The notes below the pieces were generated by a model, which searched no databases, was not told the origin of the DNA, and saw nothing but the letters and a program-made list of their open reading frames with translations. Below, piece after piece: positions 28,276 to 35,620 of a stretch of DNA of 64,000 nt. Numbering within the stretch: position 1 is the stretch's first letter; each line of letters begins with the position of its first letter. The DNA lies in contig NZ_JACHIF010000001.1 of the NCBI RefSeq assembly GCF_014203045.1, positions 1,116,001-1,180,000 on the forward strand, read 5' to 3'. This DNA comes from Prosthecobacter dejongeii (GTDB lineage Bacteria > Verrucomicrobiota > Verrucomicrobiia > Verrucomicrobiales > Verrucomicrobiaceae). The position numbers and the translations under genes were made by a program.

Positions 28276-31869
<3,594 letters not shown>

Positions 31870-31921
31870 TGGCCTGCCTAGGGTAGCCAGAAGGACGCAC
31901 TTTTCTCTCCAAAAATGCACC

Positions 31922-31959: not shown

Positions 31960-34485
31960 TCACAGCTCGATTTTCATGGCCGGTGGCGGCTTCAGTTTGA
32001 TGACGGGCTGTTCATCGGCATCTCCCTCATCCACGCCCACGGGGACGGCGCGCAGGATGGGGGTGCCATCGTCATTGACTGGACGGGCCCGCAGGATGGG
32101 CTTCTCCGCGTTGTAAGGATCGGCCCCGAGGATGATGGGGTCTTGGAGGTGGACGGCCTCGATGTTGGCAAACTTACCCGCCTGCGCGAGCAGGGCAGAG
32201 TCAGCCGTCTGGGTGATGGCCTGGTGAAAGGCCTGCAAGTCGGCTGGCAAGCCCTCCCCTGTGTGGACGGGGCAGGTGGTGTTAAAGCTGGTGCCGGGGC
32301 GCAGATACTCGGAGTAAGTGCTGCGGACGGAGCGCTCCACCCCATCTGGACCCTTGACCTTGTCATAGCAGAAGTCGGTCGCCCGTAGGCCACTGACGCG
32401 GCAGATCTCGATGCGCTCAGCAGACTCGGGTGGATTGATGTCCTGGGGGGCGCGGCCTTTCGTGGAGGCATTGATGATGTCTGTCCAAATGGGCAGCACG
32501 ATCTTGTTGGAGAAGGCTCCTGGGTAGATAGTCTTCTGCTTGTCAAAACCCACCCAGACACCGCAGGTGACGGCGGAGGTGTAACCGAGGAACCAGAGAT
32601 CCTTCGACTCATAATGCGTTCCTGTTTTACCACCTGCCGGGAAGTCTCCCAGTCCATATTCGATGGAGGGCGAACCCGTACCCCGGTGCAGGGCCTCGGA
32701 GAGGCAGGTATGCGTCTGGTAAGCGGCGATCTCGTCCATGGCACGAACGGGTTGCAGGGTTTTTTCGTCGAGCTGGAAGACCGTTTTGCCCCGGAAGTCC
32801 GTGATGCGCTGGATCAGGTGCTGCTTGGCCGGGCGCTTGCCCAGGGTGGGGAAGCAGGAGTAGGCCAGGCACATTTCATCCAGCTTGGATTCAGTGGCCC
32901 CGAGGAAGGTGGAGGGGAACTCGCGCAGCTCGGTACTGATGCCGGCGCGTTTGGTGAAGTCGCGGAAGTCCTGGCGGATGCGGCCACCCTCGAGGGCCAC
33001 TCGTTCGCCCAGGCGGACGGTGGCAGAGTTGTGGGAACCGACCAGGGCCTCGCGAGCGCTGATGGGGTTGCGGGACCATTTGGGATCATCCACTTCCATG
33101 CCCCACTCACCCAGAATCCCTGTCAGGCCGCCGATCATCACGCGGCGATTGTCCAGGGGCTCATCCGCCAGTGGGGTCATGGGAAAGTAACCTGGCTTTG
33201 AAAAAGCGGCGGCGTAAACAAAAGGGGTGAAGGCTGTGCCCACGGGGCGGACGCCGTCGGTAGCGCGGTTGTATTGGCTGTCAATGAAGTCACGGCCCCC
33301 CACCATGGCCAGGATGGAACCATCGCTGTTATCCATGACGATGGCGGCGCCCTGGAGGTATTCGGGCATGGGACGTTTCTCGTCTTGGCTCAGGGTGCCC
33401 TGATTTTTTTTCTTGAACCACTCGCCCAGGATGCCGCGGAACTGGGTGTAAGTCTGGTGAGCATAACCGTTGCGCGCTTCCACTTCAGCGAGGCGTTTTT
33501 TCATGGCGGTTTCCGCCGCCTTTTGCAGGTCTTTGTCAATGCTGGTGTAGATCTGGAATCCGCCGATGGAGGCGCGCTCTTCACCGACCAGAGAGACGAC
33601 TTCCTGCCGTACTTCGTCAAACACGTAGCTTAGCCTGGGATCACTGCTCTGGGGTGTGGTGACCATGGGCTTCAGCTTCAGGCGTTCGGCCTCGTCGCGT
33701 TGCAGGCTGCCTTCGATGACCATGCGCTCTAGGACGTAATTGCGCTCTTTGATGGCACGTTCAGGATGGCGGATGGGCTCGATGTTATTGGGGCTTTTGA
33801 TCAGGCCGGCGATGGTGGCGCATTCTTCGATGGCGAGGTCCTTGGCGTCTTTGCCAAAGTAGCCCTGGGCAGCAGCCTGGATGCCATAGAAGTTTTTGCC
33901 GAAGAAGATGCGGTTCAGATACAGTTCCAGGATCTCGCTCTTGGTGAACTTGCGCTCAATGCGCTGAGCCACAAAGGCTTCCATGATCTTGCGTTTGTAG
34001 CTCTTTTCCATCAGGCCAAAGGTCTGGCGGGCGAGCTGCTGGGTGATGGTGCTGGCACCTTGGGTGACTTCCCCGGCTTTGAAGTTGAGGTAAACGGCAC
34101 GCACAAGACCGATGTAGTCCACCCCATCATGCTGGAAGAAGCGGCTGTCTTCCTGGGCCGTCAGTGCATTGATGAAATCTTGGGGCACTTCCTTGATCGG
34201 TACGGGAGTGCGGTTTAGCACGTAGATGCGGGAGAGTTCCTCGCCATTGCGGTCATAGATGATGCTGGCAGCTTCCAGCTTGCGGATCTCTTCCAGGTCA
34301 TACTGCTCTGCCTTTTCACGGAGAGGGGCCACGACGACGGCATAGATGCCCAGCACTGCGACACTGGCGAGAATGATGAGCGCCATGAGGGCACTGAACC
34401 AGACACGCCGGTAGAAAGGGAGTTTCAGGCCGGACTCGCCGCGCCAGTTCGTCTGGGGTTTAGGTTCCAAATCTTTGCCGAACAT
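31960..34485 (-). CDS. Class A penicillin-binding protein (PBP1A-like) with a degenerate transpeptidase domain
   Basis: The 841-residue protein has one N-terminal membrane anchor (WFSALMALIILASVAVLGIY). The glycosyltransferase domain is intact: TAQEDSRFFQHDGVDYIGLV and QGASTITQQLARQTFG. The transpeptidase domain keeps SxN as SHN (Ser about 484) and KTG as GGKTGTHYES (Lys about 620). The catalytic SxxK motif is not conserved: the aligned segment reads RPVGTAFTPFVYAAAF, with Thr about 417 and Thr about 420 replacing Ser and Lys. E. coli PBP1a has GSNIKPF there. The protein probably polymerises glycan strands without crosslinking, or uses an unusual nucleophile. It is divergent from the MidA-like gene and lies upstream of dnaE. 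Confidence 0.93.
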   Translation of the reverse strand: MFGKDLEPKPQTNWRGESGLKLPFYRRVWFSALMALIILASVAVLGIYAVVVAPLREKAEQYDLEEIRKLEAASIIYDRNGEELSRIYVLNRTPVPIKEVPQDFINALTAQEDSRFFQHDGVDYIGLVRAVYLNFKAGEVTQGASTITQQLARQTFGLMEKSYKRKIMEAFVAQRIERKFTKSEILELYLNRIFFGKNFYGIQAAAQGYFGKDAKDLAIEECATIAGLIKSPNNIEPIRHPERAIKERNYVLERMVIEGSLQRDEAERLKLKPMVTTPQSSDPRLSYVFDEVRQEVVSLVGEERASIGGFQIYTSIDKDLQKAAETAMKKRLAEVEARNGYAHQTYTQFRGILGEWFKKKNQGTLSQDEKRPMPEYLQGAAIVMDNSDGSILAMVGGRDFIDSQYNRATDGVRPVGTAFTPFVYAAAFSKPGYFPMTPLADEPLDNRRVMIGGLTGILGEWGMEVDDPKWSRNPISAREALVGSHNSATVRLGERVALEGGRIRQDFRDFTKRAGISTELREFPSTFLGATESKLDEMCLAYSCFPTLGKRPAKQHLIQRITDFRGKTVFQLDEKTLQPVRAMDEIAAYQTHTCLSEALHRGTGSPSIEYGLGDFPAGGKTGTHYESKDLWFLGYTSAVTCGVWVGFDKQKTIYPGAFSNKIVLPIWTDIINASTKGRAPQDINPPESAERIEICRVSGLRATDFCYDKVKGPDGVERSVRSTYSEYLRPGTSFNTTCPVHTGEGLPADLQAFHQAITQTADSALLAQAGKFANIEAVHLQDPIILGADPYNAEKPILRARPVNDDGTPILRAVPVGVDEGDADEQPVIKLKPPPAMKIEL

Positions 34486-34555: not shown

Positions 34556-35620
34556 ATGACCCCGCTGACAAGCATTTTGCAAGACACTCTGGCCGCCTCG
34601 TCCGAGGCGCGGCTGACCTTTGCCGAAGTGATGCAGGCAGCGCTCTACCACCCGGAGCACGGGTACTATGGTCCTGGCCCGAGGCGCATTGGCCGCAGTG
34701 GAGATTTTTACACGGCTGTCTCCGTGGGGCCTCTGTACGGTCGCCTTTTGGGGAATTTGGCGCAGCAGGTGCAGGCAGAACTGGGAAACCCGGCGGATTT
34801 TGCCGTGATCGAACAGGCCGCGCACGATGGGCAACTGGCCGAGGATGTGTTGTCCACCACCGAGTTTTCCTACTGGATTGTCGAGCCGAATCCGCGCTAT
34901 GAAGCGGTGCAGCGGCAGCGGCTCGTGCCATTTGGCGAAAGGGTCCGTTGGGTCTCATCTCTCGCGGATTTGCCTGCTATCCCGGCCCTATTCCTCAGCA
35001 ATGAACTGCCGGATGCCATGCCCGTCCACCTCGTCCAGTGGGATGGCGAGGTATGGCAGGAACTCTGGGTGCAGGCGGAAGGGGCGGCTCTGACCTTTGT
35101 GCCGGGGCCACTTTCATCGGAGACACTGGCGGTGGAAAGTGCTCGGCTGCCATGTGACCTGCCTGTAGGCTACACCACCGAGGTGAATCTGGCGGCGCTG
35201 GCCTGGATGCAGGAAGTGGCGGAGGCTCCGTTTCACGGAGTGGTTTACATCGCCGATTATGGTTTTGACGACCAGGAGCTGTATGCTCCCGAGCGCACGA
35301 CGGGCACGCTGCGTCGCTACCAAAAACATCAGACGGATGATCGGGTGCTGGAAGACTTGGGCGAGTGTGATCTGACCACGCATGTCAATTTCAACCGCTT
35401 GAGTGAGGTGGCTGAATCGCGTGGGATGACAGTTCGAGATTATGAGCTGCAAGGTCGCTTCCTGGGCAAGCTGGGCCTGCCCGTGCTGGCCGCGCTGGAG
35501 GGCCGCATGGATGCTGCCACCAAGGCACTTTTGCGGCAGTATCATTCCCTGACGCACCCGGCCTTCATGGGGCGTTCGTTTCGCATCTTGAGCCTGAATA
35601 AAGGGGCTGGGGCGAGGTAG
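34556..35620 (+). CDS. MidA/NDUFAF7-type SAM-dependent methyltransferase (COG1565)
   Basis: The 354-residue product matches the family related to NDUFAF7, which methylates an arginine of complex I subunit NDUFS2 in mitochondria. Seen here are the N-terminal block YHPEHGYYGPGPRRIGRSGD followed by FYTAVSVGPLYGRLL, FAVIEQAAHDGQLAEDVL (a variant of the usual E-x-G-x-G SAM motif), LFLSNELPDAMPVHLV (the NEL-x-D-A motif) and VVYIADYGFD. The bacterial target is unproven. Interestingly nuoB and nuoC lie about 5 kb away, though no linkage is implied. It diverges from the PBP gene with 70 bases between starts. Confidence 0.88.
   Translation: MTPLTSILQDTLAASSEARLTFAEVMQAALYHPEHGYYGPGPRRIGRSGDFYTAVSVGPLYGRLLGNLAQQVQAELGNPADFAVIEQAAHDGQLAEDVLSTTEFSYWIVEPNPRYEAVQRQRLVPFGERVRWVSSLADLPAIPALFLSNELPDAMPVHLVQWDGEVWQELWVQAEGAALTFVPGPLSSETLAVESARLPCDLPVGYTTEVNLAALAWMQEVAEAPFHGVVYIADYGFDDQELYAPERTTGTLRRYQKHQTDDRVLEDLGECDLTTHVNFNRLSEVAESRGMTVRDYELQGRFLGKLGLPVLAALEGRMDAATKALLRQYHSLTHPAFMGRSFRILSLNKGAGAR

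Follow-up and report, generated by a model that had tools for sequence, protein, structure and literature searches.

A class A penicillin-binding protein homologue with threonine at the catalytic serine position in a clade spanning two verrucomicrobial orders

The locus and its product

The window analyzed here is a stretch of 64,000 nucleotides from a Prosthecobacter dejongeii contig (NZ_JACHIF010000001.1, positions 1,116,001 to 1,180,000). Its minus strand carries a PBP1A-like gene whose reading frame, checked by translation from 34485 to 31960, is open over 841 residues (Table 1). The 841-residue protein displays the features of a class A penicillin-binding protein (PBP): a GT51 glycosyltransferase (GT) domain with the glutamates E112 and E169, a predicted transpeptidase (TP) fold, an SxN element (SHN) and a KTG element (KTGT). 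The role of E169 as the second catalytic glutamate is one that we take over from E. coli PBP1b. The EDxxFxxHxG motif of the GT domain and its catalytic glutamate are described in PMC12539705.

What the protein lacks is the SxxK element with its nucleophilic serine and general-base lysine; TAFT is found instead. In a phmmer comparison with solved structures, the counterparts of GTAFTPF, SHN and KTG in A. baumannii PBP1a were GSTIKPF (the SxxK segment), SRN and KTG, respectively. The alignment agrees with a preliminary description of the locus, which had placed GTAFTPF in the SxxK segment with threonine for both serine and lysine, and which had correctly given the codons as ACA (33237-33235, T417) and ACC (33228-33226, T420). 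Scanning the 841-residue protein revealed no second SxxK in the TP core that could replace TAFT. The sole two such motifs, at residues 18 and 315, lie before the core and recur in 22/154 and 21/154 orthologues, respectively. Pfam PF00905 (TP) scored 25.3 bits on the protein, barely above the cut-off of 22.1.

The gene is flanked by a divergently transcribed methyltransferase gene and, downstream, by a DNA polymerase III alpha-like gene that we take to be dnaE. With flanks of about 1.5 kb or less, tblastn matched the PF02636 methyltransferase at 28 of 30 loci in the family, at 9 of 30 in the second order considered below and at none of 15 in genus g12. Adjacency of dnaE was confined to close relatives, namely five of the 30 family loci (L014, L015, L017, L018 and L019) and L055. 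Neither neighbor is a functional hint toward cell wall synthesis.

Table 1. Features of the locus, in positions of the window.
Feature	Position	Strand	Description and basis
PBP1A-like gene, 841 aa	31960..34485	minus	N-terminal membrane helix (by inspection), GT51, TP-fold domain without SxxK, C-terminal tail; ORF and translation
GT51 transglycosylase domain, residues 81-255	33721..34245	minus	Pfam PF00912, 212 bits, E 4.9e-63
GT motif EDSRFFQHDG, catalytic Glu E112	34123..34152	minus	second catalytic Glu E169 at 33979-33981
TP-fold domain, catalytically degenerate (predicted), about residues 376-690	32416..33360	minus	AF2 model and VIA
GTAFTPF instead of GSxxKPF	33220..33240	minus	T417 (33235-33237) at the Ser position, T420 (33226-33228) at the Lys position
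Clade signature DNRRVMIGGLTGILGEWGME, residues 445-464	33094..33153	minus	replaces W-x-P-x-N segment; orthologue alignment
SHN at SxN position, residues 484-486	33028..33036	minus	translation and alignment to PBP structure
KTGT, residues 620-623	32617..32628	minus	translation and alignment to PBP structure
SAM-dependent methyltransferase, PF02636 (Methyltransf_28)	34556..35620	plus	divergent neighbor; Pfam E 1.3e-49
DNA polymerase III alpha-like gene	28276..31920	minus	downstream of PBP gene; ORF

Orthologues and their active-site columns

Within the family, all 68 genomes searched matched the 841-residue protein at E 4.1e-171 or better, the gene being broken by contig ends in a few of them. 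Each of the 189 genomes drawn from the order gave at least one match at 1e-90, and usually two, in a count that also includes an intact paralogue. In a second order of the class, which is presumably Chthoniobacterales, 53 of the 57 genomes drawn matched at 1e-90 and 49 at 3e-170 or better. Searches of the class and of the phylum returned matches in 135/335 genomes (at 1e-100) and 20/145 genomes (at 1e-90), respectively. We presume that the gut genus Akkermansia is among the carriers.

Orthologue sequences were read for some 120 genomes belonging to the first order and for 30 belonging to the second. The 204 protein matches comprised 186 distinct sequences, of which 172 were kept once proteins contained in others had been removed; 154 of these, the 841-residue protein included, fall into one clade with a support of 0.998, and 18 lie outside it. 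The 154 include the partial gene L055 and a gene split in two, whose halves (L061 and L062) are counted separately. In the same tree, 14 paralogues with an intact SxxK (14/14) form the sister clade with a support of 1.0. Both clades hold members of both orders, and the gene duplication therefore predates the split of the orders.

The P. dejongeii genome itself encodes one of these paralogues (L174; G000:C2:60242-62209), which is 38% identical to the 841-residue protein. It has the same GT51 and TP domains and differs in that GSTVKPF, SRN, KTGT and WSPQN are all intact, with a Pfam TP score of 99.8 bits as compared to 25.3. GSTVKPF and KTGT are present in the paralogue in 12/12 genomes of the genus, and in each of the 24 genomes for which both genes were read, a paralogue with intact SxxK is present.

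At the serine column (417), 151 of the 154 orthologues have threonine. The lysine column (420) is far more heterogeneous: T in 57, L in 41 (one of them SxxL), I in 24, K in 12 (ten TxxK and two SxxK), V in 8, F in 7, M in 3, and G and Q in one each, so that lysine is absent in 142/154, the 841-residue protein included. Outside the clade, SxxK is found in 18/18 tips. The TxxT pattern is thus not the conserved feature for which it might be taken from the P. dejongeii protein: the threonine at the serine position is conserved, whereas the lysine position varies freely. Parsimony counts within the clade reflect this difference, with 2 changes at column 417, 42 at column 420 and a median of 24 over 303 TP columns; roughly four TP columns in five change less often than column 420. 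Over the whole tree, the serine column requires three changes, one from Ser to Thr and two back. By parsimony, the Ser-to-Thr change appears to have happened once, after the old duplication, and to have been retained in nearly all members.

The remaining motifs are kept to different degrees. The preliminary description had noted that the GT motifs, SHN and KTG are all present; this holds for the 841-residue protein, but the SxN element is not conserved across the clade, with Ser and Asn both present in only 62/154. KTG is intact in 133/154. Of the 152 orthologues whose sequence covers the two GT catalytic glutamates, 151 have both; the remaining two of the 154 are N-terminally cut fragments. 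The full set of SxxK, SxN and KTG occurs in 2/154 clade members, and seven of the ten TxxK members also have SxN and KTG intact. Because of these TxxK members and the two with SxxK, some members of the clade may be active transpeptidases.

The two proteins with a full SxxK/SxN/KTG set inside the threonine clade, with residues aligned to 417-486, are L123 (genome G082) and L127 (G140), from one genus of the order. Both keep a version of the loop that characterizes the clade (GLLGEWAVE), and they represent either natural revertants or late retention. A separate observation concerns L102 (G025:C71:1253-3412), an additional diverged copy and the sole exception among the 152 with respect to the GT glutamates. 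It has L and S at these two positions and TxxV in place of SxxK, and is apparently a class A PBP homologue dead in both halves.

The threonine conserved at the serine column also bears on whether the window was misread or misassembled, for which we found no indication. It is shared by the nearest relative found, at 95% identity, and by a further 149 non-redundant orthologues. With threonine in 151/154 orthologues from many independent genomes, we regard an error as refuted and its probability as practically nil.

Selection, predicted fold and clade signature of the TP domain

We estimated dN/dS (omega) by the Nei-Gojobori method (NG86), YN00 being undefined for most pairs. Among six close genomes, the median omega of the TP domain was 0.041 (14/15 pairs usable), as compared to 0.071 for the GT domain of the same protein (15/15); the paralogue's TP domain gave 0.038 (13/15). 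The corresponding values for 12 more diverged genomes, in which synonymous sites are near saturation, were 0.150 (61/66 pairs), 0.105 (63/66) and 0.100 (58/66). As judged from these ratios, purifying selection on the TP domain is strong, and in the wider set it is weaker than on the intact paralogue.

For residues 280-720, an AF2 model was obtained from an alignment deepened with class A PBPs from a viral-contig collection (pLDDT 87.7, pTM 0.88); a full-length structure prediction on 22 sequences reached a mean pLDDT of only 48.9 and was set aside. No relative was found when the viral contigs were searched with the TP domain of the 841-residue protein itself. Comparison of the model by VIA aligned 346 residues to A. 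baumannii PBP1a (3ue1_B) with a Z score of 44.1 and an rmsd of 2.3, and the predicted fold is that of a normal class A TP domain. In the model, helix alpha-2, which is expected to begin at the catalytic serine, starts at residue 416. Thr417 may therefore be retained as a helix cap, a role that would explain its conservation without any chemistry.

These data speak to the view that the TP half is a decaying pseudo-domain free of selection and that only the GT half matters. Such decay would be in line with the loss of SxxK, the loss of SxN in most orthologues, a Pfam TP score of only 25.3 bits where the paralogue encoded in the same genome reaches 99.8, and an omega above that of the paralogue in the 12-genome set. 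It is, however, difficult to reconcile with an omega in close relatives that is about that of the intact paralogue, with the many TP columns that are nearly invariant over two orders, and with the normal predicted fold. On the grounds of conservation and selection we rejected pseudogene decay, which we consider very unlikely.

A further conserved feature of the clade lies just ahead of the SxN segment. Sequence comparison places a W-x-P-x-N segment at this position in ordinary class A PBPs; in the clade, it is replaced by a short insertion and a DN-x(5)-GG-x(2)-G-x-LGEWG-x-E stretch. Within the resulting signature G-x-L-G-E-W-G-x-E, E460 is present in 154/154 members and E464 in 153/154, the exception being one Asp; over the 154 tips this amounts to 0 and 1 parsimony changes, respectively. 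None of the 18 sequences outside the clade has both glutamates, and only two have the second. When the TP domain was divided into 32 fixed blocks of 10 residues, block 456-465 (GILGEWGMEV) was the slowest, with a mean of 10.6 parsimony changes as compared to 13.7 and 13.2 around SxxK and KTG. The signature loop is at the same time the least certain part of the AF2 model, residues 451-458 having a pLDDT below 50. Both the signature and the conservation throughout the clade go beyond what the preliminary description had read from a single protein.

We also searched the DNA of the phylum for the pattern G-x-L-G-E-W-G/A, which matched 66/387 genomes; a control read backwards matched 20. Ten pattern loci outside the class were translated, and none of the ten was in a PBP frame. 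Further matches outside the two orders lay in G207, G212, G275, G277, G463 and G488, and some genomes inside them had second matches. Within the order, G002, G135 and G158 gave no match. The DNA pattern is thus neither complete nor specific.

Proposed role and relation to known enzymes

We consider it likely, on the evidence of the sequences, that the class A PBP frame serves here as a monofunctional polymerase of peptidoglycan glycan, in which a dead TP module is kept for binding or regulation and other enzymes cross-link the product. Because the residues targeted by penicillin are lost and the seemingly inactive half is retained with a new signature, cross-linking of the sugar chains that the protein would make is probably left to another enzyme. 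In this mechanism, the GT domain would polymerize lipid II. The TP domain would be unable to form an acyl-enzyme and would therefore neither cross-link nor bind penicillin covalently. The retained fold would serve without catalysis, binding a ligand or partner, perhaps via the signature near the old cleft, and controlling or positioning the GT domain. Cross-linking of the glycan would fall to class B PBPs, L,D-transpeptidases or the intact paralogue.

Such separate transpeptidases are available, since the P. dejongeii genome (6.0 Mb) holds the intact paralogue, other TP proteins and 17 matches to YkuD (L,D-transpeptidase), presumably an unusually large set for one genome. There are eight TP-family and five GT51 matches in total. 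Four proteins combine GT51 and TP domains: the 841-residue protein, the intact paralogue, L006 and L007, the last of which also carries a BiPBP_C tail. The genome further contains one stand-alone GT51 match and three long TP proteins without a GT51 match. The preliminary description had suggested a glycan polymerase without transpeptidase activity that relies on a separate transpeptidase. With the GT glutamates kept in 151/152 orthologues, the acyl-enzyme residues gone and other transpeptidases encoded in the genome, this is the best-supported reading, yet overall it is only partly supported. Several observations count against it. The ten TxxK orthologues, seven of them with SxN and KTG, and the two with SxxK may include active members; a purely structural relic would not need the KTG element that 133/154 members keep; the omega of the TP domain in the wider set (0.150) exceeds that of the paralogue and of its own GT domain, although synonymous sites are near saturation there; the signature loop is the least certain part of the model; and in C. 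difficile, where a class A PBP was rendered TPase-dead, cells continued to divide but needed the TPase for growth (PMC12539705).

Two further explanations keep some chemistry in the TP domain. T417 might still act as a nucleophile and form an acyl-enzyme slowly, which would make the protein a weak or drug-tolerant transpeptidase. The near invariance of threonine at the serine column (151/154), the lysine kept in ten TxxK members, seven of them with SxN and KTG, and the retention of KTG in 133/154 would all fit such an enzyme. Yet lysine is lost in 142/154, and about four in five TP columns are less changeable than the one that held it; SxN survives in no more than 62/154, and a cap role at the start of helix alpha-2 would account for the conserved threonine. 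We therefore regard a threonine nucleophile as unlikely. Alternatively, the TP fold could house a new active site, with the nearly invariant T417, E460, E464 and K620 lying along the old cleft and directed at some other cell wall bond or substrate. After the duplication, in the ancestor of the two verrucomicrobial orders, the TP domain would then have turned into a site that binds or acts on nascent peptidoglycan independently of penicillin and is fused to its own polymerase. The fixation of E460 and E464 (0 and 1 changes over 154 tips), the slowest of the 32 blocks around them and the absence of the pair from all 18 non-clade sequences are what such a site would predict. Conserved loops rich in Gly often serve in binding or packing as well, however, and we know of no chemistry for a Thr/Glu/Glu/Lys set of this kind. 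A new active site is accordingly a rather unlikely reading.

If the protein is a polymerase with a non-catalytic TP module, it would be an instance from nature of a class A PBP whose halves were uncoupled before two orders split, as dated by the tree, and stayed so. It would make testable what else the TP domain of a class A PBP does apart from cross-linking. A further prediction is a moenomycin-sensitive polymerase that is insensitive to penicillin and should go on running while beta-lactams block the other PBPs. P. dejongeii may be tolerant to beta-lactams by other means too: L004 (G000:C13, 1435-2304, minus strand), a protein of 289 aa with STFK and KTG, matches PF00905, and in our view resembles a class D (OXA-type) beta-lactamase.

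Among proteins of known structure, A. baumannii PBP1a (3udf/3ue1) and the PBP1a of entry 4oon resemble the 841-residue protein in domain order, GT51, TP fold (Z 44.1 and 43.9) and the positions of SxN and KTG; they differ from it in having SxxK where it has TxxT, and W-x-P-x-N where it has GILGEWGxE and a short insertion. On the NCBIfam model PBP_1a_fam (TIGR02074) it scores 461 bits, below the cut-off of 508.75, whereas the intact paralogue lies above it with 524.1. Its predicted activity is that of the monofunctional glycosyltransferases (MtgA/MGT), GT51 polymerization without cross-linking. MGTs are without a TP domain; the 841-residue protein, in contrast, retains a conserved TP fold, and its score on the MGT model TIGR02070 (129.1 bits against a cut-off of 182.65) is close to that of the bifunctional paralogue (128.3). 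We infer from these comparisons a class A PBP homologue that would work like a monofunctional GT51 polymerase while standing outside the MGT family.

Laboratory mutants with an inactivated TPase offer a functional parallel, as they have a working GT part beside a dead TP part. PBP1B S510A of E. coli is described as TPase inactive and was employed for continued peptidoglycan/glycan synthesis (PMC8135044), and with C. difficile PBP1 S487A septum synthesis and division continue while growth needs the TPase (PMC12539705). Unlike these engineered point mutants, of which the C. difficile one did not support growth, the present case is natural, extends over a whole clade and comes with added conserved residues. 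Neither a natural, clade-wide class A PBP without SxxK nor a paper devoted to class A PBPs of Verrucomicrobia was found among the matches listed from the open-licence literature. In the parts available, PMC8406291 and PMC5814848 deal with class A PBPs that the PVC group has lost entirely and not with the loss of one half, and the latter counts Chlamydiae among the bacteria without class A PBPs. A class A PBP of solved structure, PDB entry 7u4h, is nevertheless labeled as Chlamydia trachomatis Pbp1a, an organism label that may be wrong.
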